Source: Microcaldota archaeon
Lineage (GTDB): Archaea > Micrarchaeota > Micrarchaeia > Micrarchaeales > Micrarchaeaceae
Assembly: GCA_021816895.1 (NCBI GenBank)
Contig: JAKAWW010000001.1
Location: 372,001-436,000 of the forward strand
DNA: 64,000 nucleotides
Reading direction: 5' to 3'
In this document: piece by piece, positions 8,260 to 41,068 of the stretch
How positions within the stretch are numbered: the first letter of the stretch is position 1
Layout: each line of letters opens with the position of its first letter
Made by a program: the position numbers and the translations under genes
The notes under the pieces: model-generated
Told to the model about the DNA's origin: nothing
The model's database searches: none
What the model saw: only the letters and a program-made list of their open reading frames with translations

Positions 8260-9570
8260 TCACACCTCGAAAGTGTCGCCTATTTTCGGCGTGTATGCTT
8301 TGTATTTGCCTGATATGTCGTTCCTGAACTCTTCAGATTTGCTTGGGTCACCATGCACTATGAACACGCTTTTAAGGTTGCTTATGCTCGAAACAAGCGT
8401 ATCTAGCTGCCTCCTGTCTGCATGCGCAGAAAGATGGTAGTTTTCAACAGCCATCTGCACGCTTATCTCCTTGCCGTTGACGTGCACTGTCTTGTTGCCT
8501 TCTAGTAATCTCCTTCCCAATGTGCCTTCGGCCTGGTAACCAACAAGTATCATCTTGTTGGCGGAATTCTTCGCAAGCCTCGATATGTAATACAATACGG
8601 GCCCGCCAGTGAGCATGCCGCTCGTGGTCACTATTATGCTGCTCTGGTCTTCTGTTGCTATCTTGCCGCGCATCTCCTTCTTCTCAACGGGCACGAAGTT
8701 GCTGCTTTTGAACGGGTCGTAGTCGCTCATCAGTATCTTCTTCTGCAGCTCGTCCCTGCAGTATATCACATTGTGTCTGTATATGCGCATTGCCTTGTTT
8801 ATCATTCCGTCTACATAGACAGGCACCTTGCGCATTACTCCGGAATTTATGTAATCGTCAAGGAAAAGCAAGACCTCTTGCGCCCTGCCCACCGCAAAAG
8901 ACGGTATTATGACCTTGCCGCCCATGTCTATTGTCTCGTTTATGCTCTTCAGCATGTCCTTCGCAATCTTGGCCTCGCTTGTGAACACGTCCTGTTTGCT
9001 CGCATATGTGCTTTCCGTTATGAGCACATCGCTGCTTAGCCCTTTGACATCGGCTCCGTCAAGCAGCCTTGTTCGCGCAAGGTGCACATCGCCTGTATAA
9101 AGCACGCTTTTCCTGCCGTCGCTTACGCGTATCATTGCGCTGCCCACGATGTGCCCTGCAGGTATGAATTCAACTTCAAGGTCGTTAAGCCTTATCTTCT
9201 TGTTGTATTCCACTATCTTGTAGCTCTTGTGCAGCCTTTCAATGCCGTTTTTCGTGACGTTGCTCGGATTTGATATGTGCATGTAGTCGCTTATCAGCAC
9301 GTTTATTAGCTCCACAGTGGGCTTTGTCGCATAGACCATGCCTTTATATCCTGCAGTGTATATATGAGGCAGGTATCCGCAATGGTCCAGATGGGCATGC
9401 GTTACCAGCACTGCATCTATTTCGTTCAGCATCCTGTCTCCTATTAGTGGGTATTCTTCTTTTTCCCCAAGCTTTACTCCTGCATCGAGGAGTATCTTTG
9501 TTTTTTCTGTACTTATCATTATGCAGCTGCGGCCTACTTCGCCCGCACCTCCATAGAAAGAGATCTTCAA
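8260..9570 (-). CDS. Archaeal beta-CASP metallo-beta-lactamase ribonuclease (aCPSF2 type)
   Basis: 436 residues starting MKISFYGGAGEVGRSCIMI. Metallo-beta-lactamase motif 2 is VTHAHLDHCGYLPH (around residue 58); later HIVGSAMI, YTGDVH, and the beta-CASP elements STYASKQD, PSFAVGRAQE, TSGMLTGGP and YHLSAHADR are present. With no KH domains and this length, it corresponds to aCPSF2 rather than aCPSF1 (which is at 62.46 kb) or aRNase J. These enzymes cut or trim RNA 3' ends. The start is TTG at 9570, with GGTG six bases upstream and a TATA-like ATATAAATAAAAC around 9605-9617. Confidence 0.88.
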   Translation of the reverse strand: MKISFYGGAGEVGRSCIMISTEKTKILLDAGVKLGEKEEYPLIGDRMLNEIDAVLVTHAHLDHCGYLPHIYTAGYKGMVYATKPTVELINVLISDYMHISNPSNVTKNGIERLHKSYKIVEYNKKIRLNDLEVEFIPAGHIVGSAMIRVSDGRKSVLYTGDVHLARTRLLDGADVKGLSSDVLITESTYASKQDVFTSEAKIAKDMLKSINETIDMGGKVIIPSFAVGRAQEVLLFLDDYINSGVMRKVPVYVDGMINKAMRIYRHNVIYCRDELQKKILMSDYDPFKSSNFVPVEKKEMRGKIATEDQSSIIVTTSGMLTGGPVLYYISRLAKNSANKMILVGYQAEGTLGRRLLEGNKTVHVNGKEISVQMAVENYHLSAHADRRQLDTLVSSISNLKSVFIVHGDPSKSEEFRNDISGKYKAYTPKIGDTFEV

Positions 9571-9693
9571 TCTAACACCTTTATTTTCTATTGTTTTGTT
9601 TTATTTATATTGATTTGTATTTTGCGTTTGCGCCCACTGTAGCATTGCATGCACGGGCTAAAACACGTTTTGTGCAATCTGCACCGCGCTCAT

Positions 9694-10293
9694 TTATTTT
9701 GCAGGCTTCCTTTTTATCACTGCAATGTCCTCCAGATTTATCTCCTGCATGGGCTTCTCCTTGTGTGCCTGCCTCTCTACCTTGCGCTTGTTCTGCCACC
9801 TGCCAAGCTTCAGGACCTTCCTGAGATCAGTATAGAGAGCATCGATCTTCGCATCCTTATCAGCTATGTCAGAGTTGTACTTTGCAAGATCAGCTGTGTA
9901 CCTCTCTATGTCGCTCTTCATGAGCTGCACTTTCCTCTCAAGCCTGACAAGGGCGAAGGCTTCATCAAGCTCTGCATCAAGCTGATTGATTTTCATAACG
10001 AGTTCCTTCTCTTCAGACAATGAGGAAGCCTCGGTAGAGATCTTAAATTCAAGCCTGCGCTTCTGGTGCTTCAAGTAGCCTATCTTCTTTGTATCGAAAC
10101 TGCCACTGCTCTTCTTCATCTCGAGCAGCTTCATTGTGGCTGTGAGTTCCGCTTCTTTATAGCTGATGCGCCTCCTGAGGTCTTTTACCTTAAATATCAT
10201 TGAGCTCCTTTCTTTCTTGAGGCCGTCTATGTTTACCTTTATCGCCTCTGCCTCCTTGTTGTGCGACTCCTTTATTATTTCGTTCAGCGGCAC
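9694..10293 (-). CDS. Coiled-coil protein, uncharacterised (COG1340-like)
   Basis: About 199 residues, almost entirely charged heptad-type helix (EELVMKINQLDAELDEAFALV and similar), with a basic tail ending AVIKRKPAK. It resembles archaeal COG1340-type coiled-coil proteins of unknown function; no catalytic motif is seen. The start is uncertain: GTG at 10293 is used here, but the frame stays open back to 10434 without ATG/GTG/TTG, encoding a polar Q/N/T-rich stretch. A GGAGG sits at 10428-10432, overlapping the end of the glycosyltransferase gene, so an unusual upstream start is possible. It is the last gene of the uL30-uL15-GT4 operon. Confidence 0.6.
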   Translation of the reverse strand: MPLNEIIKESHNKEAEAIKVNIDGLKKERSSMIFKVKDLRRRISYKEAELTATMKLLEMKKSSGSFDTKKIGYLKHQKRRLEFKISTEASSLSEEKELVMKINQLDAELDEAFALVRLERKVQLMKSDIERYTADLAKYNSDIADKDAKIDALYTDLRKVLKLGRWQNKRKVERQAHKEKPMQEINLEDIAVIKRKPAK

Positions 10294-10424
10294 TGTCTTT
10301 GGGCGCTGTGCATCTGTACGGCTCTGTGCAGTAGCCTGCCCCGCATTCTGCCTGCTTTCCTGCGTATTCGTTGCGTCTTTATTGATGCCTGTCTTCTGTT
10401 CGTCTATGCTATTCAGGGAATCGC

Positions 10425-11597
10425 CTATCCTCCATTAAGTGCAGCATTATTGTTTGAAAGCTCCTTGTAAAGGTCGATAAGCCTGTCTGCAACCTTCTTT
10501 ATCGAATACTCTTTTGCAGTGCTTACCGTTTCTTTATATGCATCAACATTATTTATAACCTTTTCTATTTTTCTTGCACAATCCGTTACATTGCCTGGCT
10601 CGAACTTTTCGCCGTTCTTCCCATTCTTTATGATCTCCTGCAGCGCCAGCTTGTTTGCCCCCACTACCGGCGTGCCTGTGGCCATCGATTCGAGCAGCAC
10701 TATGCCTTGTGTTTCAAACGTGGAAGGCAGGCACACAACGTCCGCGGCAGCATAGTAGTTTGGAAGCGTGTCATCGTCTATGAAGCCCACAAACTTGACC
10801 TTGCCGCTAAGGCCCAATCTTGCGCTTAGGTCCATGTACCTGCGCATCAGCGGCCCAGTGCCCCCGACTACCAGCACATAACCGTCATCGAGCTGCTTTA
10901 TGGCCCTGATAAGCACCTCGAGGTGTTTTTCTTTGCTGAGCCTGCCCACATACAGCACCAATTTCTTGTTGCCTTCTACGAGCTTATCGCGCAGCTTCCT
11001 TCCGTCAACATTCTTGTTGAACTTCTCCAGGTCTATGCCGTTTGGGACTATTACGCTGTTGTTTATGCGCCTTTTCTTCAGTATGCTGCTTACCGTTCTG
11101 GTAGGTGCAATCGTGTAGTTGCACCGTTTGTAGAAGTAGCGCGCATACCCCCACGAATACCTTAGGGCGTAGCGCTTCATGAAGCTGCTGTTTGGCATGT
11201 ATTCGTTTATTACCTCCTTTTCAGTGAACATCGTGTGGAAGGAGCCCGCTATCGGCAGCTTGTTGAGCCTGCTCAGCAGCAGGCCGTAGAAGCCCATCGT
11301 GAACGGCGTGTGTGCGTGTATAACATCTATGTCCATGTTCTTGAATTTGAAGTACGTCATGAACGGGAACAGCGCTATGTTGTATTGCGGGTACTTGTTG
11401 AACTTTGCGCTCGGCGCCACGAAAATGCGGCTGTCCTTCTTTGCAGCAGCTCTGGTGTCCTTGCTGCCGCTTACGAACAGGTAAACATTATGGCCCCTGC
11501 GTTCAAGCTCGTTGCGCGTGTTTATTATAGAAGTTACCACTCCGTCAACGGCTGGCAAATAGGTATCGCTATAAAATGCGATATTGAGGGTCTCCAT
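10425..11597 (-). CDS. Family 4 (GT-B) glycosyltransferase
   Basis: 390 residues. The N-terminus (IAFYSDTYLPAVDGVVTSI) with HAHTPFTMGFYGLLLSR is the acceptor domain; the C-terminal donor-binding domain has KLVLYVGRLSKEKHLEVLI, LVVGGTGP and the E-x7-E motif PSTFETQGIVLLESMATGTP. This pattern fits GT4 enzymes related to glycolipid glycosyltransferases (1,2-diacylglycerol 3-glucosyltransferase-like), though substrate cannot be read from sequence. It starts 26 bases after uL15, so it appears to be in a ribosomal-protein operon, a curious but not unique arrangement. Confidence 0.88.
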   Translation of the reverse strand: METLNIAFYSDTYLPAVDGVVTSIINTRNELERRGHNVYLFVSGSKDTRAAAKKDSRIFVAPSAKFNKYPQYNIALFPFMTYFKFKNMDIDVIHAHTPFTMGFYGLLLSRLNKLPIAGSFHTMFTEKEVINEYMPNSSFMKRYALRYSWGYARYFYKRCNYTIAPTRTVSSILKKRRINNSVIVPNGIDLEKFNKNVDGRKLRDKLVEGNKKLVLYVGRLSKEKHLEVLIRAIKQLDDGYVLVVGGTGPLMRRYMDLSARLGLSGKVKFVGFIDDDTLPNYYAAADVVCLPSTFETQGIVLLESMATGTPVVGANKLALQEIIKNGKNGEKFEPGNVTDCARKIEKVINNVDAYKETVSTAKEYSIKKVADRLIDLYKELSNNNAALNGG

Positions 11598-18358: not shown

Positions 18359-18369
18359 AGCCCCAGGAG
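18359..18369. repeat. Left attachment core (att) of the integrated element
   Basis: AGCCCCAGGAG, identical to the last bases of tRNA-Thr at 27888-27898. It lies outside any gene, just left of the AT-rich element. The length of 11 bp is short for a tRNA att, so exact boundaries need an empty-site comparison. Confidence 0.65.
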
Positions 18370-18421
18370 AGCGCCCTTTTCTCGATAAGGAACCCGCCGT
18401 TATGATAATATAAAAAGAAAG

Positions 18422-18442
18422 GCTCCTTAAATTCTAAGGAGC
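18422..18442 (-). terminator. Hairpin terminator downstream of the first element gene
   Basis: GCTCCTTA-AATTC-TAAGGAGC forms a perfect 8-bp stem with a 5-base loop. Read on the minus strand it is followed by CTTTCTTTTTAT, a T-rich tract typical of termination. It lies 32 bases past the stop of the gene ending at 18474. Confidence 0.65.
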
Positions 18443-18473
18443 AAAATCAAGCCAAATACTATAAGTTTTTATG

Positions 18474-19052
18474 CTATTGTGCTTTTCTTGCTTCTACAAT
18501 TTCTAGGTGTTCGTGTGTAATGTTTATGTTTCTTATTTTAATTATTCCTATATATTCTTCAAAAAATTTGTCTTCTTCTGGAGGAAATTTTGTTGGATTG
18601 TCGATGATAATTGCATCATCACTAATATTGCTCTTTAATATTTCTTTAAATTCATACAGGCTAGCATAATTACCATCAACATATACTATAACATAATTTT
18701 TGTTTTTGATGGCATCGTTGATTTCCTGTATAATCTCGCCATATCCGAATAGAGCTTCATTATTAATTGAAGGCTTCATTATTAGTGACCAACCACCAAT
18801 ATCTATCCTGTGAACTAGGGGAATATCTTCAGATGTTTTTCCTGCTTCTAATGAGTAGAGGAGTGTTGGGTTCTCTTTTACTAATTGTAGGGATTTCCAA
18901 AAATTGAGAAGATTTTCTTTAATAAGATAGTTGTCTTCCTCTGTGATACTTGTGTCTGTGACTTTTTGCAAGGCAGATTCATCTACCTCTTCGTCTTTTC
19001 CATTTCGTTTTTCATTCTTCATTTTCTCACTTCGTCCTTCTAATGAGGACAT
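18474..19052 (-). CDS. Element protein of unknown function
   Basis: 192 residues, acidic, no membrane segment. The first 40 residues are highly charged (KMKNEKRNGKDEEVDESALQ); the remainder looks like a small alpha/beta domain (NKNYVIVYVDGNYASLYEF, SDDAIIIDNPTKFPPEEDKF). No family recognised. A minus-strand TATA AAATATAAAAAG (about 19068-19079) sits at the right distance for a leaderless ATG at 19052. It is divergent from the membrane-protein pair starting near 19219. Confidence 0.6.
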   Translation of the reverse strand: MSSLEGRSEKMKNEKRNGKDEEVDESALQKVTDTSITEEDNYLIKENLLNFWKSLQLVKENPTLLYSLEAGKTSEDIPLVHRIDIGGWSLIMKPSINNEALFGYGEIIQEINDAIKNKNYVIVYVDGNYASLYEFKEILKSNISDDAIIIDNPTKFPPEEDKFFEEYIGIIKIRNINITHEHLEIVEARKAQ

Positions 19053-19122
19053 TATAGAGGTTACTTGCGGCTTTTTATATTTTTTGGTTAGAACACAAAA
19101 TAATTTTGAGAAAGCAGTTTAA

Positions 19123-19145
19123 CCAAAAGTTTTTTATATATATAG
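19123..19145 (+). promoter_or_regulatory. TATA promoter for the element membrane-protein pair
   Basis: AAGTTTTTTATATATATAGC is a strong AT-rich TATA region in the divergent spacer. It would start transcription near 19160, ahead of the gene beginning about 19219. Confidence 0.45.
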
Positions 19146-19218
19146 CACGAAAAAATCGCACAATAATTAGTGCATTGTTCCAAATAACGAATGCATTTTT
19201 TAGTCAGCTATCTTCTAC

Positions 19219-19551
19219 TTGCTCATTAAACAAGCAGAACATATAAAAAGTTACTTTGAGAAGGTTAAAATTGGTATCAACACAAACAGTGGCTTGATGG
19301 TTGGACTTAAACAGATTATAGGCCTTGTTCTCATTATCGTAGCGATAGTTATCCTTGCTTTATCGTATAATGCCTACATAACTAGCTACCATAAAACGAT
19401 AAGCACCTCTAACTTCACCTTCTTATTCTCTGGCATATTCTGGGATTTAGTGGGCATACTTATAGGTGCAGTATTGATTGCCATAGGGTTGATTTTAGCA
19501 TATCCCAAAGGTGCTAGATGGATTGCTAACAGAAATAGGAGTATAAAATGA
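19219..19551 (+). CDS. Two-helix membrane protein of the element
   Basis: 110 residues with two strong membrane helices (about 33-55 and 70-95) and a basic end (RWIANRNRSIK). The start is uncertain: TTG at 19219 is used; the next ATG would leave residues from MVGLKQ onward and still keep both helices. The last codons overlap the next gene by four bases (ATGA), so they are probably translated together. No family recognised. Confidence 0.6.
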   Translation: MLIKQAEHIKSYFEKVKIGINTNSGLMVGLKQIIGLVLIIVAIVILALSYNAYITSYHKTISTSNFTFLFSGIFWDLVGILIGAVLIAIGLILAYPKGARWIANRNRSIK

Positions 19552-20405
19552 AAAAGAAAGGAAGGTATAGTATATCTGATTTTTATACCATATTCGCCAT
19601 AGTTGTTGTAATAATTCTGATTTCAATTTTCTTATATATAAGTTTAGATATTGCACCAAAGATTCTTGATATTGAAATAGGTAAAATGCCGATAAATTAT
19701 AACAACACTTACCCATCTCTATTACAAGGCATAATAATAGCAGCCGGTATTATAGCAGGTTTATTTGGTGGGTTAGTTATTGGGTTAGCAAAACGGCTTA
19801 CTGCTTTTATAAAAAAATATAGAATAAAAAATTCGCCGCAATGGCTAGCCTATTTTTTAATTATAATAGCTGCATTATTATTATTCATTTTTACAATTTT
19901 ATCAATATTTTATTCAATAAATGGTATGATTAATTTTAGTGTAGTAAACTCGTATTTTACCACTCAAATAAATGCCAACACATTGCATTTAGTTGCACAA
20001 AATGGAAGTGTAATACTAATTAATAGTTCATATTTCATTAATAGCAGAATACACTACATTCCTGTTTATATAAATTCAACATACAACAACTTAGTTAGTA
20101 GTACAAAAGATTCCATAAATTATTTGTATTATGCTTTTATACTATTAGCCATTTTTCTAATTTTTAATATACTAGTTATATATTGTTTCTTTGATTTGGT
20201 AGAGCATTTTTATACTAGGACGTTTATCAATAAACTTATTGTAAACTTTTCTATCCTATGTATAGTATCTCTAACTTTTGGAGTTATTTTTATTAATAAA
20301 GTAGCTTATATAATTTCGGCTATTTCATTTATTATTATTTTTATTATTATTGGTATAAAGCTTTTTTCCAAGAAAAGAAAAAAGAAGAAGAGCACAGTTG
20401 ACTGA
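19548..20405 (+). CDS. Polytopic membrane protein of the element
   Basis: 285 residues, very AT-rich, with about six hydrophobic segments. A stretch between the third and fourth (roughly residues 125-180, NTLHLVAQNGSVILINSSYF) has many Asn/Ser/Tyr and N-x-S/T sites and is probably outside the cell. It ends in a lysine-rich tail (KKRKKKKSTVD). Together with the overlapping upstream gene it forms the only rightward gene pair of the element's left half. Role unknown; entry exclusion, egress or a channel are all possible. Confidence 0.65.
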   Translation: MKKKGRYSISDFYTIFAIVVVIILISIFLYISLDIAPKILDIEIGKMPINYNNTYPSLLQGIIIAAGIIAGLFGGLVIGLAKRLTAFIKKYRIKNSPQWLAYFLIIIAALLLFIFTILSIFYSINGMINFSVVNSYFTTQINANTLHLVAQNGSVILINSSYFINSRIHYIPVYINSTYNNLVSSTKDSINYLYYAFILLAIFLIFNILVIYCFFDLVEHFYTRTFINKLIVNFSILCIVSLTFGVIFINKVAYIISAISFIIIFIIIGIKLFSKKRKKKKSTVD

Positions 20406-20442
20406 CCAAAATATCAAAGAATAAAATAAAATATAATAAAAA

Positions 20443-20580
20443 CTATTCCTCCACCTCCTCCATCAAGTCCTGTATAAACTCATATAATAGCGGATCCTTT
20501 TCTTTAAGTGCTATGTTGTCTTTGTATTTAAGTATTATATCGCATTTTGTTTTATACCATCTATTGCTGAACTTCTTCAT
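20443..20580 (-). CDS. 45-residue element protein overlapping its upstream neighbour
   Basis: The frame reads MKKFSNRWYKTKCDIILKYK and ends DLMEEVEE: basic start, acidic end. Its ATG lies inside the last codons of the preceding gene (20561-20791), overlapping by 20 bases in another frame. No family recognised. Short, but coding is plausible from the tight packing and strand consistency of this gene train. Confidence 0.45.
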   Translation of the reverse strand: MKKFSNRWYKTKCDIILKYKDNIALKEKDPLLYEFIQDLMEEVEE

Positions 20581-20791
20581 TAGAAGCACCACTGTCACCA
20601 TTGTCGCCATTGCTGTTGTCCTTTCTCGTATTATACCTTTCTATTATCTTTTCAAACTTTTCGTGATATTTATCCTCTACTTCTATATCACCAAGCATAT
20701 GCAACTTTATGGCATCTCTTGGTATTCCGGATTTTAGAGCCTCCTTCACGACTCTTCCACTTATATTTTCATCTAGCTTATATTTGGGCAT
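20561..20791 (-). CDS. Small soluble element protein, possible DNA-binding
   Basis: 76 residues. The first 50 are a charged helical domain (MPKYKLDENISGRVVKEALK, then SGIPRDAIKLHML); the tail is low-complexity (DNSNGDNGDSGASNEE). SD GAGGTGT is six bases before the ATG. The start resembles ribbon-helix-helix or small HTH regulators only loosely. No confident family. Confidence 0.6.
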   Translation of the reverse strand: MPKYKLDENISGRVVKEALKSGIPRDAIKLHMLGDIEVEDKYHEKFEKIIERYNTRKDNSNGDNGDSGASNEEVQQ

Positions 20792-20879
20792 GTTTACACC
20801 TCAATTAGGGACTGCATAATATCACTACTATGCAATTTTCCCTTATCCGTCCTAATATGGTGAACTTTGGGAGATAACT

Positions 20880-20901
20880 CCCACGGAGAATTGACTCTCC
20901 G
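20880..20901. terminator. Inverted repeats, candidate terminator or RNA hairpins
   Basis: ACGGAGA-ATTGAC-TCTCCGT is a perfect 7-bp stem, directly preceded by GGGAG-ATAA-CTCCC, a 5-bp stem at about 20868-20881. Two adjacent hairpins downstream of the micro-gene on the minus strand suggest a processing or termination signal. Confidence 0.45.
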
Positions 20902-20943
20902 TCCTACCAACAAAATGGCGGATTGGTAAGTATGCCTTACAAT

Positions 20944-21024
20944 TCAAAATAAAGATTGTAACAGCTGTTGAAAAGCTGCCATAATCCCTTTAATGAATCC
21001 CACTATTGTATTCAAGTCTATCAT
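20944..21024 (-). CDS. 26-residue micro-protein with strong SD
   Basis: The frame reads MIDLNTIVGFIKGIMAAFQQ followed by LLQSLF and a TGA. It is hydrophobic/amphipathic and could insert in a membrane. TTTAGGTGA lies six bases upstream of the ATG, the same SD type as its neighbours, which is the main support. No family can be assigned at this length. Confidence 0.5.
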   Translation of the reverse strand: MIDLNTIVGFIKGIMAAFQQLLQSLF

Positions 21025-21052
21025 AGTTTTCACCTAAACGCTCAAATTTAAC

Positions 21053-21066
21053 CTACATTAAACGAT
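21053..21066. repeat. 14-bp dispersed repeat, copy 1
   Basis: CTACATTAAACGAT, identical to 26484-26497. The sequence after it in both copies also shows a TTA-ATAAG block, so the similarity extends imperfectly beyond the core. Confidence 0.6.
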
Positions 21067-21159
21067 TCCATGACCCTTATAATAAGCCGTTAAGGGTCGC
21101 GATAACGCTCTACACGTTAAATGCAGAGGCTTTTTTCAGGTTAATAACCCTATAACCCA

Positions 21160-21414
21160 TCAAAGCCCGCTTAAAACGTTGATTCCAAAGAAGGCCAAGC
21201 CTGCTATAACTATCAAGGCAACACCTATCAATATCATTAAGTTCTTAGCCGCTCCACTAAAAGCTATCAGCAATATGCCTATTATCATCAATAGGAGTGG
21301 AGACATTGTGAATAATTGAGATGCCCAGCTACTTGCTGCTGCTGTGGCTGTTGTTGTAGCAGAGTGAAAAAGATAGCTTCCTATTGCGTTGCCTATATAA
21401 GAGGTTATACTCAT
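21160..21414 (-). CDS. Small two-helix membrane protein (coat-protein-like size)
   Basis: 84 residues: alanine/threonine-rich start (SYLFHSATTTATAAASSWAS), then two long hydrophobic helices separated by a short turn with a basic residue (GAAKNLMILIGVALIVIAG). Small double-helix proteins of this kind occur as coat proteins in some archaeal viruses and as pore-forming peptides, but no homology can be shown here. Its ATG overlaps the upstream gene's stop (ATGA). Confidence 0.6.
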   Translation of the reverse strand: MSITSYIGNAIGSYLFHSATTTATAAASSWASQLFTMSPLLLMIIGILLIAFSGAAKNLMILIGVALIVIAGLAFFGINVLSGL

Positions 21415-21824
21415 TTATACACCTTTGTTTCCTTTTGAACATGGGGAGTAAAAGTCCCGTGCTTCTTGACGACTTTTAAGACAAAGCTCGGTCTATTGTT
21501 AATTATGCCTAAACCTATTGTAAAAATATCGCCTTCCTCTATGGGTGGGTTTAATATTGTTTTTATACCAGCGAATATAACAGCAGGCTTGTTATCATAC
21601 CTTAGAGGATGTATTTTGTTATACGGGATTCCTTCTACAAGCTCTTCTGTATAATTACTTACCCAAATGGCATAGTATTCTTTTTTTCTTTCCTCAATAT
21701 GTTCAACATAAAAGAATATCTTGTTCTGTCCGAACCTTTGTATAATGTCATAGTTTTTAATGACACCAATCGCACCTGCTCTAAACTCATATACCTTGCT
21801 CACGCTCACTTGTTTTTCTTCCAA
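21411..21824 (-). CDS. Element protein of unknown function, beta-rich
   Basis: 137 residues, probably TTG start at 21824 with GGCGGTTGA upstream. Strand-rich with motifs such as NKIFFYVEHIEERKKEYYAI and GDIFTIGLGIINNRPSFVLK; no membrane helix. No family recognised. It is translationally coupled to the two-helix membrane protein downstream, so the two products may act together. Confidence 0.6.
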   Translation of the reverse strand: MEEKQVSVSKVYEFRAGAIGVIKNYDIIQRFGQNKIFFYVEHIEERKKEYYAIWVSNYTEELVEGIPYNKIHPLRYDNKPAVIFAGIKTILNPPIEEGDIFTIGLGIINNRPSFVLKVVKKHGTFTPHVQKETKVYK

Positions 21825-21910
21825 TCAACCGCCCCACTCTTTTGTCTTCAAACTTATGCCTTAACCTTTAATCCGTAGTTTTTATGCACGCATTTATGCA
21901 CTAATTAAAT

Positions 21911-22177
21911 CTATGCATTATGTTTTATTTGATTTGCAATATCTTCGTATATGGCAAGTTCATTGCTCATAGCAGTTAAGTTGATTACTTCTCCGGCAAA
22001 TTCTTCTAAATCTCCTTCCTCTGGGACGAAAAATTCCATGTAGTCGCTATCTTCCTCGCTACTGTTCTGAGAAACTGCTATCCACTTGCCTCTGTATTCT
22101 TTCAATGTCTCTGCATTTACGTCCATTACGTCCATACAAACAGCAATTTTATGCTCTTTATTCTCTTCTTTGCTCAT
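21911..22177 (-). CDS. Small acidic element protein (paralogue of the upstream gene)
   Basis: 88 residues from the ATG at 22177 (MSKEENKEH), which overlaps the upstream stop (ATGA) and follows GGTGACAAA. The sequence VNAETLKEYRGKWIAVSQNS resembles VDSEIVKEFEGKYIYMRK of the neighbouring product, and both contain an 'IYED/LYEDI' block, so they look like diverged duplicates. Function unknown. Confidence 0.6.
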   Translation of the reverse strand: MSKEENKEHKIAVCMDVMDVNAETLKEYRGKWIAVSQNSSEEDSDYMEFFVPEEGDLEEFAGEVINLTAMSNELAIYEDIANQIKHNA

Positions 22178-22476
22178 TTTGTCACCACACACTCATTTTT
22201 TATTATACCATTAACGACATCCACTTTGCCTTCTGGCAGGTTTACCATCCCGTTATGGACAGATATCATGCTTATGTCTTCGTATAATACTACAAATGTA
22301 ATCTGCTTTGTTGGAGACACAAATAATGCCGACCTATCCCCTGCTTTCTTTAAGTAGGCTATGATAACTCTGTCACCTCCATATTTTCGCATATATATGT
22401 ATTTCCCTTCAAACTCCTTTACAATCTCAGAATCCACTCCCATGCCATAGCCATCTACCATCTTATCACTTACCAT
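22174..22476 (-). CDS. Small element protein (paralogue of the downstream gene)
   Basis: 100 residues from ATG 22476; ATG 22461 is an alternative. Beta-rich domain with GGDRVIIAYLKK and FVSPTKQITFVVLYEDISM. Shares an E-x-K/G-K-aromatic pattern with its neighbour. It overlaps the small coiled-coil gene upstream by seven bases. No known family recognised. Confidence 0.55.
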   Translation of the reverse strand: MVSDKMVDGYGMGVDSEIVKEFEGKYIYMRKYGGDRVIIAYLKKAGDRSALFVSPTKQITFVVLYEDISMISVHNGMVNLPEGKVDVVNGIIKNECVVTK

Positions 22477-22616
22477 ATTTTTTCTAACAACCTCTTTAGC
22501 TCCTGTTCTTTTTCTTGTTCTTTTACTTGCTCTTCTATTACTTCATGCATAAAAATCTCATCAAGCATCTTAGCTTCCATATCCTCGATTCGTTCCACTA
22601 ACAACTCAATATTCAT
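22470..22616 (-). CDS. 48-residue coiled-coil element protein
   Basis: MNIELLVERIEDMEAKMLDE begins the frame, which ends QELKRLLEKIW. It is a continuous charged helix with heptad leucines, suggesting a dimeric coiled coil. The stop overlaps the next start. SD support is weak. Small, but its codon pattern fits a genuine gene. Confidence 0.5.
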   Translation of the reverse strand: MNIELLVERIEDMEAKMLDEIFMHEVIEEQVKEQEKEQELKRLLEKIW

Positions 22617-22645
22617 TTATGCACCAGGTAGCTAATCAGAATAAA

Positions 22646-22810
22646 TCAAATTCTGTCCAGGACCCACTTCAAGGCCTCGATTTGTCCCTTTACATTATCA
22701 AGGTATTCTTTTGTTATTCTCTTGCCGTACTTGTTGAATCCACCCACTCCCTCAGATAGAATATATTGCCCATCAGCTATCCTATTCAAAATGTCTAGTT
22801 CTGTTCTCAT
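22646..22810 (-). CDS. 54-residue element protein
   Basis: From ATG 22810 (MRTELDILNRIADGQYILSE), preceded by AGGTGTAAAA, the element's usual SD form; an upstream start at 22849 is less likely. Helical, ends IEALKWVLDRI. No family recognised. It lies just beyond the iteron-like array on the same strand as the ATPase gene. Confidence 0.55.
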   Translation of the reverse strand: MRTELDILNRIADGQYILSEGVGGFNKYGKRITKEYLDNVKGQIEALKWVLDRI

Positions 22811-22887
22811 TTTTACACCTATTTTTACCAACATTGTCACTATTAACATTTCGTAATTATTCGAAAAGTCCCCAGTAAAACCGCTAA

Positions 22888-23138
22888 GGTTAAAAGGTCT
22901 GAAATGATTAACCCTACTTTTTCATTACCTAAAAACACTGATTTTGACAAAAACCTGAAACACGTTTAACCTTAATTTTCTGACCAATAAGGTTAAAGGG
23001 TTAAAAAGGTTTAACCTTAACTTTCACGTCGGTGAGGGTTAAAGGGTTAATTGAGTTTAACCCTAAAAGGGACAGGGGTAGGGTTAATGGTTAAAGGTTA
23101 TATAAATAACCTTAACCTTAACCCGTCCACGCTTAACC
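22888..23138. repeat. Iteron-like array of GGTTAA/TTAACC units, candidate replication origin
   Basis: About 14 copies of GGTTAA or its complement occur within 250 bp, partly as composite units such as GGTTAAAGGGTTAA (twice) and TTTAACCTTAA or TTTAACCCTAA in inverted arrangement. The array directly follows the 3' end of the RepA-like ATPase gene and has no ORF. Such arrays next to replication genes typically bind initiator protein; here that is inferred from position and pattern. Confidence 0.65.
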
Positions 23139-23145
23139 CTCAACC

Positions 23146-24291
23146 TTATTCCTCTTTGACCACCTCATAATCACCTTTTTTATTTTTCATTATTTTACCA
23201 ACCTCTAATAGGTTATTCAACGCAGTTTTACAGGTTCCCTCACTAACTCCAGCACTTCCTTTGGTACTTGCTATTAGCACATTATAAGCGATAGGACCAT
23301 TCTCGAGTTCTAGCAACTCAAGTATCTTGTTCTTTGCCTTCTCTGTTTTACTAGTCCCTTCGTATGCAGCACCAACAAAATGGAACCCTAATCTTTCTTT
23401 TCCGTCGTTCTCTTTGTAGTCATAAACTGATATATCGATCCCTTCTGCATAACCTAATCCTCTTTTTAGTTTTATACGCCCATAATCTGTCCTAAGAGTA
23501 AGAAGTTCTCTCCCAACAGCACTGCTTTTTCTTTGAGGAGTGAGCGTATACAGGTTGTCTATACTTGCTAATATATCACCAGAGCCACGAACTGCTTTCA
23601 TCGGGTTTGATTCTCTGGGCGATTGACTGGATTCTTTTGTAGAATGATGAATAATGAGCACAGTTAAGTTCCCATAATATGCTTTTATGCCGTTTATGGC
23701 ATCAAAGTATGATGACACCTCATCACTACTATTTTCTGATGCTGTTGTTGAACGCCTAAACGAATCAATAATCAGCAAGCCGAGGTTTGGGACTTCCTTC
23801 TTAAATTGGATAATTCCCTTATATGCTTCGTCGTTTATTTTATTGTTTCTTATACCTGAAATCCACTCATCTCCAGTATTTCTACTGATTTTATTTGTCG
23901 ATATCATAAATCTGAATGGATTCATAAAGTTATTGTGAGCTATATATAAATCTCCGGAGTAGTCGTATCCCAATGTTTTATTAACCATCTCCATAAAGTA
24001 AGCTGGAGCTATCTCAAGATTTAGGTACAAAACTGGAACTCGCTTTGTTGGGAATACATCTAGCCAAGGCTTCCCACTTGCTATTGCTCCTGCCATACTT
24101 ATAGCCAAAAACGACTTCTTTGCTTTCGGTTCTGCAGCAAGCATATCTACCGTATTAGATGGCAAAACCTGGTCGACCAAAAAGTCGGGCTTAAACTTCT
24201 CCATCTTCTCACGAAAGACATCTACCTTTGATATGTAGTTACCTACATTGAACTTCTTTGGTTCTTCTATTTTCTCGTTATTTTCTTCCAT
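23146..24291 (-). CDS. RepA/RadA-like AAA ATPase, probable plasmid helicase
   Basis: 381 residues from ATG 24291, six bases after AGGTGA. RecA-fold (AAA_25/RepA type): the P-loop is DMLAAEPKAKKSFLAISMAG, which keeps Lys-Ser but has lost the usual Gly before Lys; then VLYLNLEIAP, Walker B LLIIDSFRR, sensor block VLIIHHSTKES, and VRGSGDILASIDNLYTL. A C-terminal winged-helix-like segment (NKILELLELENGPIAYNVLI...KTALNNLLEVGKI) may bind DNA. Hexameric helicases of this type replicate broad-host-range plasmids. Position beside the repeat array supports a replication role. Confidence 0.75.
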   Translation of the reverse strand: MEENNEKIEEPKKFNVGNYISKVDVFREKMEKFKPDFLVDQVLPSNTVDMLAAEPKAKKSFLAISMAGAIASGKPWLDVFPTKRVPVLYLNLEIAPAYFMEMVNKTLGYDYSGDLYIAHNNFMNPFRFMISTNKISRNTGDEWISGIRNNKINDEAYKGIIQFKKEVPNLGLLIIDSFRRSTTASENSSDEVSSYFDAINGIKAYYGNLTVLIIHHSTKESSQSPRESNPMKAVRGSGDILASIDNLYTLTPQRKSSAVGRELLTLRTDYGRIKLKRGLGYAEGIDISVYDYKENDGKERLGFHFVGAAYEGTSKTEKAKNKILELLELENGPIAYNVLIASTKGSAGVSEGTCKTALNNLLEVGKIMKNKKGDYEVVKEE

Positions 24292-24463
24292 TCTTCTCAC
24301 CTATCCTAATTGATGCAATTGCATCAAAAAATATCTCCTCCCTAATACCACTGTTATAAATCAAAGTCACAGACTTTTCTCCAATCTCCTCTATTGTTCC
24401 TGTTTTCACAAAGGAATCCTTCATAACAACCCTTGCGAACTTTCCTACATCTAGCCTATTCAT
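24278..24463 (-). CDS. Small beta-barrel element protein
   Basis: 61 residues from ATG 24463 (MNRLDVGKFARVVMKDSF), with AAAGGTGA just upstream. The pattern of short strands (KTGTIEEIGEKSVTLIYN) suggests an SH3- or Sm-like barrel. Overlaps the ATPase gene start by 14 bases, so it is probably co-expressed and could be a partner. No confident family. Confidence 0.55.
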   Translation of the reverse strand: MNRLDVGKFARVVMKDSFVKTGTIEEIGEKSVTLIYNSGIREEIFFDAIASIRIGEKNGRK

Positions 24464-24485
24464 TTTATTCACCTTTTACACACAA

Positions 24486-24830
24486 TCACAAATTAGTTGT
24501 ATTTCCTAAATCTTTGAGTTGCTCTTCAATTTGCTTATTCAGACGCTTCAATATCCTCTTATACTGCAACAATGTTACTCTCTTTTCTAAAATTGGGATA
24601 GCTTTCTGAACTTCTAAGGGTAGCTTGTTGTTATCAATAATCCCAATAACCTCATACTTGAACTCAGGATCCTTAGTCCTCTTGACTGCAATTGTTTTTT
24701 TCGTATCCTTGTTCTTGTCAAAGGGGAAATAGTACACATCGTTGTAGAGAACATAGCTTTTTACAGGACCTTCCCTAGCTAATTCTTCCATTTTATTGAA
24801 TATCTTTTCTTCACAATTGCTATTACTCAT
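24486..24830 (-). CDS. Element protein of unknown function
   Basis: 114 residues; N-terminal mixed domain (KSYVLYNDVYYFPFDKNKDT) and a basic helical C-terminus (RVTLLQYKRILKRLNKQIEE). SD GAGGTGA upstream of the ATG; the start overlaps the preceding small gene (ATGA). No family recognised. Confidence 0.6.
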   Translation of the reverse strand: MSNSNCEEKIFNKMEELAREGPVKSYVLYNDVYYFPFDKNKDTKKTIAVKRTKDPEFKYEVIGIIDNNKLPLEVQKAIPILEKRVTLLQYKRILKRLNKQIEEQLKDLGNTTNL

Positions 24831-24979
24831 TTACTCACCTCATCAATAGGTATTTTTTTGACAGGAGGTAGCAATACTCTCTTGCCATCAACAAAAGTGC
24901 ATACAAGATAATTCCCAGACTTGTTTGGCTTCTTTGCGTAAAAAACGCCATCTCTCTCTATCCATAGTTCTTTATTCAT
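24827..24979 (-). CDS. 50-residue element protein, first gene of the leftward operon
   Basis: Reads MNKELWIERDGVFYAKKPNK and ends KKIPIDEVSK. AGGTGAAGTC precedes the ATG, and the stop overlaps the next ATG by four bases. A short beta-rich protein of unknown function. It appears to open the operon that includes the RepA-like ATPase. Confidence 0.6.
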   Translation of the reverse strand: MNKELWIERDGVFYAKKPNKSGNYLVCTFVDGKRVLLPPVKKIPIDEVSK

Positions 24980-25016
24980 GACTTCACCTAGTTTACACTA
25001 AACATCAACACTAAAC

Positions 25017-25146
25017 CCTCCGAGACCATAGCAATAGCTGAAGATTGTTATAGTCGCTAAAAATTAGTCAAAAAGTGAGATACCTACTCTCCCCTATAGG
25101 TAATAACACTGTTCAAGGTATCATAGACGCCTGTCGCCCTCGGAGG
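25017..25146. ncRNA. Candidate structured RNA bounded by an 8-bp perfect stem
   Basis: CCTCCGAG (25017-25024) and CTCGGAGG (25139-25146) are perfect complements enclosing about 114 bases. Nested inside are GATACCT (25079-25085) with AGGTATC (25116-25122), and ACCTA with TAGGT (25097-25101). No coding frame spans it. It could be an antisense/copy-control RNA or leader. The strand is undetermined. Confidence 0.4.
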
Positions 25147-25335
25147 CCTACTTTTTATGGGTCATAAACCTATTCGTTTATAAATTTATAATCAATATTA
25201 TTAAAAAGATAAAATATAAATATTTATCTTTTAGGGTTAAAATTTAAGGCGTCATAAGGTTTTTATATGATATATAAGATATATAATATATGATTTTATG
25301 AGCTTTTGTCGACGGTAAACTTAATTCTATAACAT

Positions 25336-25369
25336 TATACTCAAGTATAAGAACTTATACTTAAGTATA
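25336..25369. promoter_or_regulatory. Tandem palindromic operators overlapping a TATA box
   Basis: TATACTCAAGTATA (25336-25349, one mismatch from symmetric) and TATACTTAAGTATA (25356-25369, perfect palindrome), centres 20 bp apart. The second runs into AAGTATATAAAGG, a TATA box appropriate for the small ORF at 25420. Two helical turns between centres suggests cooperative binding of a dimeric repressor. Confidence 0.6.
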
Positions 25370-25419
25370 TAAAGGTCAAATTAATAAGTCTTTTTGGGCT
25401 TTATTTTTGGTGGTAAAAA

Positions 25420-25608
25420 ATGGTCAAAAATATGGTCCAAAAACATGTCAAAAATGTGAAAATTTGCGTTTCTCTTAACCTTATCTGTTTAAAGAATATA
25501 AGGTTTTGTCGCCCTTTACTTATCCCTGTGGGACGGTCAAGAAGGCCTGTTCATAAGAAAACCTTATATCCTAATTTAAGAAATAAGGTTGCATATTTTA
25601 TGAGGTAA
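25420..25608 (+). CDS. Possible 62-residue basic protein under the palindromic operator
   Basis: ATG preceded by TTTGGTGGTAAAAA (element-type SD) and by a TATA box at 25366-25375. The product is basic (MVKNMVQKHVKNVKICVSLN at the start, RSRRPVHKKTLYPNLRNK near the end). The DNA at its start is a set of near-repeats (ATGGTCAAAA, ATGGTCCAAAA, ATGTCAAAA), so this may instead be an iteron-like control site. No homology recognised. Confidence 0.35.
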   Translation: MVKNMVQKHVKNVKICVSLNLICLKNIRFCRPLLIPVGRSRRPVHKKTLYPNLRNKVAYFMR

Positions 25609-25774
25609 ACTTGTGGATAGGGACTACAAAAGATTAACAAGAAGATTTGCCATTTTACCTATGTATTAATGACTCTTTGCATAAAAATATCAATATATTT
25701 CGTACCAAAAAGCAATAGGCATCACATTAGATAACTTTTTAATAGTTATAGTCTAATTATTGTATGGTTGTGTT
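25609..25774. promoter_or_regulatory. Upstream region of the exported element protein
   Basis: AT-rich spacer. ACTTTTTAATAGTTATAG (about 25734-25751) is the likely promoter for the gene starting at 25775; no SD is evident, consistent with a short or absent leader. Confidence 0.4.
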
Positions 25775-26287
25775 ATGGGGAAGCATTCAAGTAAGAATTC
25801 AAGTAAAGGTGGTTGGGCAGCAGTCATAGTCGTTGTGATTATAGTTATTGCGATATTTTTATTCATGGGCAATAAATCATCAATTTCAACAACAAGCCCT
25901 GGTGGTGGCTATGCATCTTCTACCGTGCCTCAAGTACAAAATATTGCACTTATTTCCCAAGGAACAGTATTTTCTATAAATCCAAGTAGCTACAATATTG
26001 TTAACTTTACTGTTCCGACTGGTGCATACTCAATTAGTGTTACAGGTTCTTACACGTCACAAGGCAAAATAGAGGTAGCCATACTTACACCAACACAATA
26101 TGGCATGTTTACCCAAAACCCTAGCTCTATATCTTCTTCACAATATTTTTATGGAGATACTCAAGGTTCAACAATAAATGCAGCACTTTCTCCAGGCCAA
26201 TACACTTTAGTGTTTTACGATCCTGGCATAATTACCCAAGATACCGTAACTATAGTTAACCCTATAACCTTGACATACACACAATAA
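25775..26287 (+). CDS. Membrane-anchored extracellular protein of the element
   Basis: 170 residues from ATG 25775. After a short basic start (MGKHSSKNSSKGGW) comes one membrane helix (AAVIVVVIIVIAIFLFMG), a Gly/Ser/Thr linker, then a beta-rich domain (NIVNFTVPTGAYSISVTGSY...LSPGQYTLVFYDPG) resembling the pre-peptidase C-terminal or jelly-roll type domains seen in archaeal surface proteins. Probably displayed outside the cell. It could be a cargo adhesin or a virion surface protein. Confidence 0.6.
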   Translation: MGKHSSKNSSKGGWAAVIVVVIIVIAIFLFMGNKSSISTTSPGGGYASSTVPQVQNIALISQGTVFSINPSSYNIVNFTVPTGAYSISVTGSYTSQGKIEVAILTPTQYGMFTQNPSSISSSQYFYGDTQGSTINAALSPGQYTLVFYDPGIITQDTVTIVNPITLTYTQ

Positions 26288-26589
26288 AATTTACATTTTA
26301 TTTATTTGTAGTTTTGGAATTAAAAGAAAATGCTCAAAATAAACCTACACACGCTTCTCTTGTGGGGCTTAACCTTAACCTCTTAACAACCCGATTTAAC
26401 GCCACAGAGCGTCCTAAAGCGGTTTTTGAGGGCTATCAAAGGGCTATAGTGGTTGATGATAAGAAAAAATCTCTACATTTAAGCTACATTAAACGATGTC
26501 AAGCCGCCTTAATAAGTTATAAGCCCAACACCAATCTCTTAATGTAAGCCTTGTTTGAGGGCTTAGAATTAAAAAACGACTGTAAGGTG
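26288..26589. other. Non-coding segment with the dispersed repeat
   Basis: Lies between the exported protein and the integrase stop codon. Contains TTAACCTTAACC units like the iteron array, and the 14-bp repeat at 26484-26497. A 77-codon TTG-initiated frame crosses it but has no SD or family resemblance and overlaps the repeat, so it is not called as a gene. Confidence 0.45.
26484..26497. repeat. 14-bp dispersed repeat, copy 2
   Basis: CTACATTAAACGAT, identical to 21053-21066. On the opposite strand of copy 1's neighbourhood there is also ATTTAACG-AGAGCGT, which recurs near 26393-26412 here, so parts of the two regions correspond. Confidence 0.6.
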
Positions 26590-27786
26590 TTATTTATGCA
26601 CAAGTTGCTTCTTCAATAGTTTAACTAGTTCATTTTTTATATCCGGATTTCTCAAGATTTCTATGATTAACTCATCGAGTTCTCTTTTATCCTCATTATC
26701 GGATAATACATCAGACAAGTTCAATGGCGATCCACATCTGGTACAATAAAGGCTTGTAGCAGGGTTCTCTTTTCCACACCTTGGGCATATAGCAACAGTC
26801 AATTTAGCTACCTGCCTTTCCATAGGCTTCTGGTCATTCACTTCCAAGAAAGCATTATCTAAGTCCCTACCACTAAGATGCACATATACGCTTGTCATAT
26901 TGCTTCCCTTAGACCATCCGAAGAACTGTCTCATTTGTGGCTCAGTGAGTTTATTTGCCAAGAAAGAAGCCCTACTATGCCTAAATAAGTGGGGATAAAT
27001 ATGCTTCTTTATGCCTGCTTTTTCTGCAGTAACCCACAACATTTTTGCTATGCCATCTCTTGTTGAAGGCTTTTTTAGGCTTGTCCAACTACCCTCTGAA
27101 ACAAAGAGGCTATCATCGTTTTTAGAGTTCTTGCGTTCCTCTAAGTATTGGGCGATATAAGGCACGGAAAAGAACAACGGTATTCTTCTTGCTCCAGTCT
27201 TGCCAAATACCTGTACATGCCCAATCTTGCCATTTAGGTCCACATCCTTTATTTTTATATTGGTTAGCTCCCCTATCCTCATTCCAGTATCCCACAATAA
27301 GGCTATTATGCACTTACCCCTAAAGGTATCCGCATTATCAATCATTAGCCTGATTTCATCTTCGGACAATAGCTCTTCTGGCAGCTTTTCCTTATCCTGC
27401 GAATAATTAGTCGTCACCCAAGCAACAGAGGGAGGATAAGTGACATTATTCCCAAAAAGATATTTGAAGGCCTTCTTCACGGATAATAACAACCTTCTCC
27501 TTTTATGCAAGCTAACACTCTTATCTACCATCAGTTTTGCTATAACCTTCTGCACATCTTCTTTTGTTATGTCCTCAATGTTTTTTGTCGGCAAATCGAG
27601 CACTTCAAAAAAGTAGGATATATTGCCCAGATGCCTCATTATTGAGAACTCCTCTATGCCTAAAGAAATCAAATAATAGGCAAAGTCCTGCATTCTTTTT
27701 TTACCTGCTTCAGTCGTTTTGTAGTTATTTATGCACCCGATAGCCTCCGCTAGGATTTCATTTTTCTCCTCCATAATGTCGGTCAT
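26590..27786 (-). CDS. int: Tyrosine recombinase (integrase) with C-terminal zinc ribbon
   Basis: 398 residues. N-terminal SAM-like core-binding domain, then the catalytic domain: Arg in LLWDTGMRIGELTNIKIKDV, HLFRHSRASFLANKL (H-x-x-R), the G-W motif FFGWSKGSNMTSVYVHL with the nucleophilic Tyr. A zinc ribbon follows (CPRCGKENPATSLYCTRCG), as in several archaeal integrases. It is intact and not split by integration, and its 5' end faces tRNA-Thr 100 bases away. It presumably integrates and excises this element. Confidence 0.9.
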   Translation of the reverse strand: MTDIMEEKNEILAEAIGCINNYKTTEAGKKRMQDFAYYLISLGIEEFSIMRHLGNISYFFEVLDLPTKNIEDITKEDVQKVIAKLMVDKSVSLHKRRRLLLSVKKAFKYLFGNNVTYPPSVAWVTTNYSQDKEKLPEELLSEDEIRLMIDNADTFRGKCIIALLWDTGMRIGELTNIKIKDVDLNGKIGHVQVFGKTGARRIPLFFSVPYIAQYLEERKNSKNDDSLFVSEGSWTSLKKPSTRDGIAKMLWVTAEKAGIKKHIYPHLFRHSRASFLANKLTEPQMRQFFGWSKGSNMTSVYVHLSGRDLDNAFLEVNDQKPMERQVAKLTVAICPRCGKENPATSLYCTRCGSPLNLSDVLSDNEDKRELDELIIEILRNPDIKNELVKLLKKQLVHK

Positions 27787-27887
27787 CTCATATACTTAAC
27801 TACACAGATGTGTATTAAAGTATATAATAATATATAAACCGATAAATATTTAAATCTTTTTATAAGGGTTCCTTACTATGGGTTAAG

Positions 27888-27898
27888 AGCCCCAGGAG
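27888..27898. repeat. Right attachment core within tRNA-Thr 3' end
   Basis: AGCCCCAGGAG, the discriminator base, acceptor strand and first T-stem bases of tRNA-Thr, matching 18359-18369. Confidence 0.65.
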
Positions 27899-28003
27899 GG
27901 AATTGGACCCTCGACCTTCTGCTTTATGGTTTGCTACCATGCAGACGCTCTCTAGTGCTTCTGCTCCATCAGCAGAGCAAAAGTGCCACTGAGCTACTGG
28001 GGC
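27888..28003 (-). tRNA. tRNA-Thr(GGU) with two predicted introns
   Basis: On the minus strand the acceptor GCCCCAG pairs with CTGGGGC followed by U73. T-stem GAGGG/CCCTC, D-stem GCTC/GAGC and anticodon stem TCTGC/GCAGA all form. Two insertions disturb the loops: about 31 bases in the D-loop (itself a strong hairpin around CTGCTGATGGAGCAG) and about 11 bases in the anticodon loop (containing ATGGT...ACCAT). Removing them gives a 74-base cloverleaf with anticodon GGU. U73, G1-C72 and C2-G71 agree with archaeal tRNA-Thr identity. The T-loop reads TCCAATT, so position 55 is C, which is odd. Exact splice sites are not determined. Confidence 0.8.
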
Positions 28004-39543: not shown

Positions 39544-39684
39544 AAAAGCACCTTAGATAGCTCCAGCCAGATTCGAACTGATGTCAACAGGTCCAGAGCC
39601 TGCTATCCTTGACCACTAGACGATGGAGCTATTGCATAATACTATTTGTGTGAAGGTTTTTTATATGCTTGTTAAGAACAATCC
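39527..39684. repeat. 158-bp direct repeat, left copy
   Basis: Differs from 40911-41068 at only three positions (two in the tRNA T-stem, one upstream of the promoter). It contains a tRNA promoter, tRNA-Gln, SD and the first codons of a gene. The two copies bracket hemA. Confidence 0.9.
39558..39630 (-). tRNA. tRNA-Gln(CUG), copy with damaged T-stem
   Basis: 73 bases, identical to the right copy except positions 49-50: the T-stem is ATCAG against CTGGC, giving an A-C mismatch and a U-G pair where the other copy has GCCAG/CTGGC. Anticodon loop CTCTGGA gives anticodon CUG. The promoter is intact, so it is transcribed but may fold or process less well. It could be a decaying duplicate. Confidence 0.75.
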
Positions 39685-40927: not shown

Positions 40928-41068
40928 AAAAGCACCTTAGATAGCTCCAGCCAGATTCGAACTGGCGTCAACAGGTCCAGAGCCTGCTATCCTTGACCAC
41001 TAGACGATGGAGCTATTGCATAATACTATTTGTGTGAAGGTTTTTTATATGCTTGTTAAGAATAATCC
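40911..41068. repeat. 158-bp direct repeat, right copy
   Basis: Same content and orientation as 39527-39684, offset by 1384 bp. The perfect T-stem of its tRNA suggests this copy is the functional one. Confidence 0.9.
40942..41014 (-). tRNA. tRNA-Gln(CUG)
   Basis: 73 bases: acceptor AGCTCCA/TGGAGCT with A73, anticodon stem GCAGG/CCTGT, loop CTCTGGA (anticodon CUG), T-arm GCCAG-TTCGAAT-CTGGC. The minus-strand TATA CATATAAAAAACC (about 41039-41051) lies upstream. No intron. Confidence 0.9.

Follow-up and report, generated by a model that had tools for sequence, protein, structure and literature searches.

Bacterial cis-mobilizable elements (CIMEs) are non-autonomous elements that share attachment (att) ends. 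The term CIME appears in PMC5704250. In archaea, elements that target tRNA genes and carry an intact integrase include a class with short att sites, for example SNJ2 with 13 bp, and the pNOB8-type integrase elements, also with an intact integrase, have att sites of about 40 to 50 bp (PMC8371274). Neither “DPANN” nor “zinc” occurs in the main text of that review. In “Candidatus Mancarchaeum acidiphilum” Mia14, an island adjoining the 23S rRNA gene encodes small membrane proteins and a XerD-family integrase (PMC5498576). Mobile elements of Micrarchaeota, archaea that live attached to hosts of other lineages, have hardly been described. Here, we analyzed a 64-kb stretch (the window) of the complete, single-contig, 928,770-bp genome of a Micrarchaeota archaeon (the source genome, G000). 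We believe, with a probability of about 0.78, that the locus at 18359 to 27898 of the window is a plasmid-like element in integrated form that probably remains functional, and that it represents the member with an integrase in a family that also includes small integrase-less elements (minis), most likely mobilized in trans.

A preliminary description of the window had proposed a mobile element at a tRNA-Thr gene, citing an 11-bp direct repeat, an intact zinc-ribbon integrase beside the tRNA, an AT-rich composition, and a RepA-like ATPase. Each of these features held on analysis. The target gene, tRNA-Thr(GGT) (27888..28003, minus strand; anticodon read from the sequence), was detected by the Rfam tRNA model (RF00005, 45.9 bits) but was overlooked by ARAGORN because of its two introns, one in the D-loop and one after position 37. 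The final 11 nucleotides (nt) of the gene (27888..27898) are the tRNA-side att core, AGCCCCAGGAG, and are repeated exactly at 18359..18369, the distal core and left end of the element. By our own estimate, the chance of finding a copy of the 11-nt core inside 10 kb is roughly 0.002. The cores enclose 9,518 bp of AT-rich DNA with a GC fraction of 0.349 (34.9%) compared to 0.47 (47%) in the flanks. A pair of perfect 10-bp inverted repeats sits just within the cores, TAAGGAACCC at 18386..18395 (16 nt from the distal core) and GGGTTCCTTA at 27866..27875 (12 nt from the tRNA-side core), each unique within the window. In the whole source genome, the exact repeats pair at just two places, the window element and the genome's own mini. 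We surveyed the tRNA set of this genome (35 ARAGORN tRNAs plus tRNA-Thr(GGT)) for 11-nt copies. Only tRNA-Thr(GGT) and tRNA-Thr(TGT) had a copy fitting such an element, and both loci bear the terminal repeats of the family. Near-end repeats were also present at a few other tRNA genes, one of them accounted for by tandem tRNA-Gln. A tRNA-Gln(CTG) pair lies on one strand of the window, 1.4 kb apart, at 39556-39631 and 40940-41015.

The tyrosine integrase (26590..27786, minus strand; 398 amino acids [aa]; PF00589, 4.8e-24) is encoded by a full-length gene with its start some 100 bp from the end of the tRNA. Its catalytic set (R170, K196, H266-x-x-R269, W291, and Y301) is complete and invariant in a 13-row alignment, and all four cysteines of the C-terminal zinc ribbon (PF13240, 1.1e-7) are present. 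The integrase was found in 10 of 40 relatives, most of them with the zinc ribbon and most with an adjacent tRNA. Among integrase-bearing contigs of sufficient length, three (L026, L038, and L092) have an 11- to 13-nt repeat that ends at the tRNA end or one base beyond it. Repeats of a similar kind occur on L036 and L022, with the L022 integrase lying beyond the second copy. The integrase elements of L026, L038, and L092 have the same core placement as the window element and different arm repeats. Inverted arms stand at a similar offset from the core in several integrase lineages that differ in arm sequence, which would be expected of recombinase binding sites. Applied to single elements, a 15-nt arm test gave a weak result; a dyad-offset test gave a clearer one, although its strength was confined to the elements as a group.

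From this arrangement, a route of integration can be proposed. The zinc-ribbon integrase would recombine the 11-bp core with the identical tRNA-Thr 3' end, with the 10-bp inverted repeats as its likely binding arms. Joining the attP core to the tRNA end in this way leaves the tRNA whole, as read from the sequence. The excised circle would join 27887 to 18370 across CTCCTGGGGCT. As a separate observation, AT-rich genes beside the zinc-ribbon integrases of L023 (10700-18900) and L039 (10900-16400) have the look of restriction or other defense islands.

A second copy of the element was found on contig L032, which comes from another genus (G023). This copy is broken, with blocks of 79%, 91%, 95%, and 85% nucleotide identity to the window element. 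A deletion has brought its integrase, cut near codon 133, up against the 84-aa gene located at 21160 in the window, and RepA is absent. The L032 insertion site is tRNA-Thr(CGT) (Rfam, 7433-7528). Both ends of the copy are marked by an 11-bp core of its own, CTCTTGGGGCT, and the homology to the left end of the window element stops at the core. Among host genes, KsgA is 49% and the DNA ligase on L032 is 63% identical between the two genomes, compared to 79 to 95% nucleotide identity for the element; the element has therefore moved between genera. No empty tRNA-Thr(CGT) adjoining the ligase was found in the source genome. An ordinary host genomic island, with genes gained piecemeal beside a tRNA and a repeat that arose by chance, could in principle look similar, since gene gain at tRNA flanks is common. 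However, the exact boundaries recur in the second genus, cores and inverted repeats are paired at near-fixed spacing, and the element genes are missing from most of the phylum. Nor were these genes found as syntenic core genes of relatives, with RepA present in only 3 of 300 other genomes of the phylum and distant in those. We consider a host island to be extremely improbable, as it is already contradicted by these comparative data. The earlier proposal of a mobile element is borne out by the L032 copy, with the same ends in a different tRNA gene of another genus, and by the occupied and empty sites of the minis.

The lineage is broader than was first described, because the ends of the element also bound the integrase-less minis. 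By DNA comparison, minis contain pieces of the window element in unchanged order: 18359-18402, a membrane gene, 20444-20524, and then 27857-27925. The 7.3-kb block with the integrase and RepA is missing, and the minis share a nearly identical internal junction (20524/27857). They are found in several Micrarchaeota genera and are bounded by 10-bp repeats of the element type and by tRNA-matched cores. The repeats are perfect or near-perfect. On the tRNA side they start 11 to 12 nt from the tRNA end, and on the distal side they end some 16 nt short of the core, with near-identical spacing in five minis (L131, L132, L136, L142, and L143) and in the L032 relict. Between cores, the minis measure 1,285 bp at tRNA-Thr(CGT) (L131), 2,124 bp at tRNA-Arg(GCG) (L132), 1,773 bp at tRNA-Thr(GGT) (L142), and 1,429 bp at tRNA-Arg(GCG) (L143). 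The source genome, which thus holds both an integrase element and a mini, has its mini (L136) at tRNA-Thr(TGT), with 2,902 bp between cores (genome positions 298232-301155). A further locus, L133, spans 5,013 bp at tRNA-Thr(CGT). Within one genus whose members carry sibling minis, G005 has an occupied tRNA-Thr(CGT), whereas the ortholog in G046 is empty. Likewise, tRNA-Arg(GCG) is occupied by a mini in the complete G046 genome and empty in the source genome.

The 80-nt segment at 20444..20524, which lies beside the tRNA-side end in minis, has 83 to 97% nucleotide identity in six of them. Read on the minus strand, it is the end of a 55-aa open reading frame (ORF) with the peptide PLLYEFIQDLMEEVEE, which is kept at the amino acid level in the distant minis L141 to L143 with an inconsistent start codon. 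L141 has both repeats and is located in a coding gene with no recognized tRNA. This mini (about 9427-10760) lies inside a LamG-like gene at a sequence resembling a tRNA end, and the host reading frame runs on into the element peptide. In the source genome, a third core copy, CTCTCAGGGCT, is found at 289901, 8.3 kb beyond the mini, and hints that an older element once stood there in tandem; the intervening DNA is AT-rich and has a toxin-antitoxin-like pair. A search of IMG/VR with the terminal-repeat pattern gave two matches, both chance-like and inside genes.

Minis thus have the recombination ends of an autonomous element and no recombinase inside, as do CIMEs and miniature inverted-repeat transposable elements (MITEs). 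The best reading is that minis are non-autonomous, MITE- or CIME-like derivatives that the integrase of the element could mobilize. Since the arms of minis match the window element rather than L026, L038, or L092, an integrase of this type would be the best candidate mobilizer, most likely acting in trans.

The gene that all minis have in common encodes an 84-aa membrane protein with two transmembrane (TM) helices (19297..19551, plus strand in the window). The ORF has a TTG start at 19219 and had been read as 110 aa; a start at the ATG at 19297, giving 84 aa, is more likely. Homologs occur in 12 other genomes of the phylum, and the source genome has a second copy. Over a 77-aa core, the ratio of nonsynonymous to synonymous substitution rates (dN/dS) of the close group against the window copy was 0.09 to 0.23 (median, 0.135). 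The protein is under purifying selection. No Pfam family was assigned above the cutoff, and a weak link was found to the uncharacterized phrog_6166 (best, 2.6e-4). The protein is fused behind a zinc-finger-like part in L131 and L134 and behind SprT- and AN1-like parts in L137. In L032 and in the mini of the source genome, its gene is preceded by one whose product has two TM helices at its C terminus and a homolog in L092. Downstream lie membrane proteins that differ between elements. Taken together, the shared protein is a conserved membrane module with exchangeable partners.

The block that is missing from minis holds the replication genes. The RepA-like ATPase already noted in the preliminary description (23146..24300, minus strand, 384 aa) is of the hexameric helicase type; it matched Pfam AAA_25 (2.4e-23) and the structure of RSF1010 RepA (1g8y, 7e-6), to which it is about 24% identical across 59% of its length. 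Beside it lies an iteron-like array of direct repeats, a putative replication origin (22887..23139), with 14 GGTTAA/TTAACC hexamers within 286 bp compared to 0.22 expected from shuffles. An excised circle may replicate from this array via the RepA-like helicase, and the element would then spread between Micrarchaeota by transfer. Each of the three distant RepA relatives (L037 to L039) has a zinc-ribbon-type integrase within a few kilobases. A fourth RepA match (G130) proved spurious, as the ORF aligned poorly and was GHMP-type kinase-like, and matches in the phage collection were distant bacteriophage helicases only.

The preliminary description had left open whether this was an undescribed plasmid or virus lineage. 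RepA, the iterons, and the integrase favor the plasmid half of that proposal. The virus half was not supported, as no virion or packaging gene was recognized. On a provirus reading, one of the two-helix 84-aa proteins would belong to the capsid or membrane of a small virion (spindle-like, pleomorphic, or vesicle-type), with a 175-aa protein (described below) as its surface spike. In size and style, the element does resemble small archaeal membrane viruses, with its pair of small two-TM proteins, its membrane-anchored beta-sandwich, RepA, and an integrase, and the 175-aa protein weakly matches, in structure, a haloarchaeal phage phiH transmembrane protein (E value, 1.2e-4; TM-score, 0.36). However, no packaging or structural gene was found in PHROGs, and IMG/VR held no relative of RepA or of the 285-aa, 137-aa, 175-aa, or 84/110-aa proteins. 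Fusion of the two-TM protein to zinc-finger or peptidase-like parts would be odd for a capsid protein. A possible kinship of the two-helix proteins to SSV1 VP3 gave no signal (probability, 1.6 to 2.5% by hhalign against a single reference sequence). We therefore regard a provirus as quite unlikely and a plasmid-like element as the better reading, although searches of this kind often miss small archaeal virus proteins. The integrase by itself does not decide between the two, since a related one lies beside a tape-measure-like gene on a tailed-virus-like IMG/VR contig (L044).

Several observations weigh against an element that is still functional and mobilizes minis in trans. Neither a RepB primase nor a RepC-like initiator was recognized among the small proteins (Pfam and NCBIfam). 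Several relatives are metagenome contigs. L134, L135, and L137 reach contig ends, no proximal terminal repeat was found for L133, and L138 to L140 have the membrane gene with no core pair or repeats confirmed. No integrase relative was found in the complete, mini-carrying G046 genome or in the G005, G017, and G037 assemblies, and a helper is therefore not resident there now. Mobilization of the G046 mini would thus be past or would depend on incoming helpers.

This last point also fits a different origin, in which minis are independent decay products of complete elements that lost the integrase and RepA after insertion and kept their ends by descent. L032 is plainly such a decaying intermediate, and G046 has a mini and no integrase relative. 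Yet independent decay would give varied remnants, while minis share a nearly common junction at different tRNA genes and in different genera. They also form a close group (about 79 to 94% aa identity) and a distant group (about 50%), all integrase-less, and their shared gene is under purifying selection. We hold independent decay to be a possible but doubtful explanation. It is conceivable, though unlikely, that minis are true satellites, an old and diversified DPANN class of integrase-less tRNA cassettes that spreads with helpers of the window type. The two-TM protein carried by all of them would then be the part for cell-to-cell spread, with swappable partner domains; it could act in membrane vesicles, in particles, or in uptake.

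Among the products of the element, only the integrase and the ATPase passed a curated Pfam or NCBIfam cutoff, and PHROGs gave no convincing match for the others (larger ORFs searched). This agrees with the mostly orphan gene set noted earlier. The 175-aa protein (25760..26287, plus strand) is a predicted surface protein with an N-terminal TM helix and a GOLD/PPC-like beta-sandwich. Its model (predicted local distance difference test [pLDDT], 71) was closest to SEC14L-type (Z, 9.6) and p24 GOLD domains (Z, 9.2), a predicted shared fold that does not show function. Homologs 65 to 68% identical are found in L091 and L092, where the integrases are about 37% identical to that of the element. The gene for a 285-aa multi-TM protein (19548..20405, plus strand) overlaps the shared membrane gene (ATGA) and has homologs in minis L136 (35%) and L137 (41%). 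At the left end, a 192-aa orphan (18474..19052, minus strand) with no family is variable cargo, with other genes in its place in relatives.

The remaining genes lie on the minus strand. A soluble 76-aa protein (20561..20791, minus strand) is 76 to 81% identical in the L032 relict and has a weak TraC match far under the cutoff. The second two-TM protein of 84 aa (21160..21414, minus strand) has no family and no PDB or phage match and shows 82% identity to its L032 counterpart across the part that both have. It is overlapped by a 137-aa orphan (21411..21824, minus strand; AlphaFold pLDDT, 34) with no relative among 294 other genomes of the phylum. Four small ORFs in one direction (93, 100, 48, and 67 aa; 21911..22849, minus strand) and three upstream of RepA (64, 114, and 50 aa; 24278..24979, minus strand) have no family. 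The stretch 20840-20950 folds with unusual stability on both strands (z, -3.5 and -3.75), has no Rfam match, and is possibly a structured RNA or DNA feature. A PADLOC defense scan of ten proteins of the element and minis gave 0 matches.

With an integrase, a core, and arm repeats defined, integration can be tested exactly, and the system might serve as a site-specific tool in archaea that still lack genetics. Minis provide a means of tracing recent exchange of DNA among genera, and they raise the question of why one small membrane protein was kept when all else was lost. In the open literature, we found no description of this integrase family, the elements, or the minis, which is not proof of absence. 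Short att cores at archaeal tRNA ends and bacterial CIMEs were already known; the element, its integrase family, and the minis appear to be undescribed.

Compared to known systems, the locus has what is expected of a tRNA-integrating element: a border repeat equal to the tRNA 3' end, an intact recombinase, and occupied and empty sites (for sibling minis). Like SNJ2-type short-att elements, it has an intact integrase beside a tRNA and a short core at the very 3' end of that tRNA. Unlike them, it has a C-terminal zinc ribbon, 11- to 13-nt cores matched to Thr or Arg tRNAs, Micrarchaeota hosts, and arm repeats common to the element and minis. The 11-bp core sets it apart by att length from the pNOB8-type elements. 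It also differs from the SSV-type (suicidal) arrangement, in which the SSV1 integrase gene carries att, as its own integrase is unsplit at 26590-27786 with the core outside the gene. With Fuselloviridae (SSV1) and other small archaeal membrane viruses it shares small two-helix hydrophobic proteins, an integrase, and a tRNA target, but VP3 is unmatched. No relaxase or conjugation ATPase domain was found in Pfam, NCBIfam, or PHROGs scans, which separates it from integrative and conjugative elements. A RepA-type hexameric helicase and an iteron array recall the RSF1010/IncQ plasmids, which differ in that the element carries an integrase and that no RepB primase or RepC was recognized. The Mia14 island is likewise micrarchaeal, with an integrase and small membrane proteins, but the available part of its description (PMC5498576) mentions no tRNA att core or terminal repeats. 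Finally, minis resemble bacterial CIMEs and MITEs in having the recombination ends of an integrase-bearing element and no recombinase, and they differ from these in that the ends are those of a tyrosine integrase at tRNA genes, the hosts are DPANN archaea, and a membrane-protein gene is conserved.

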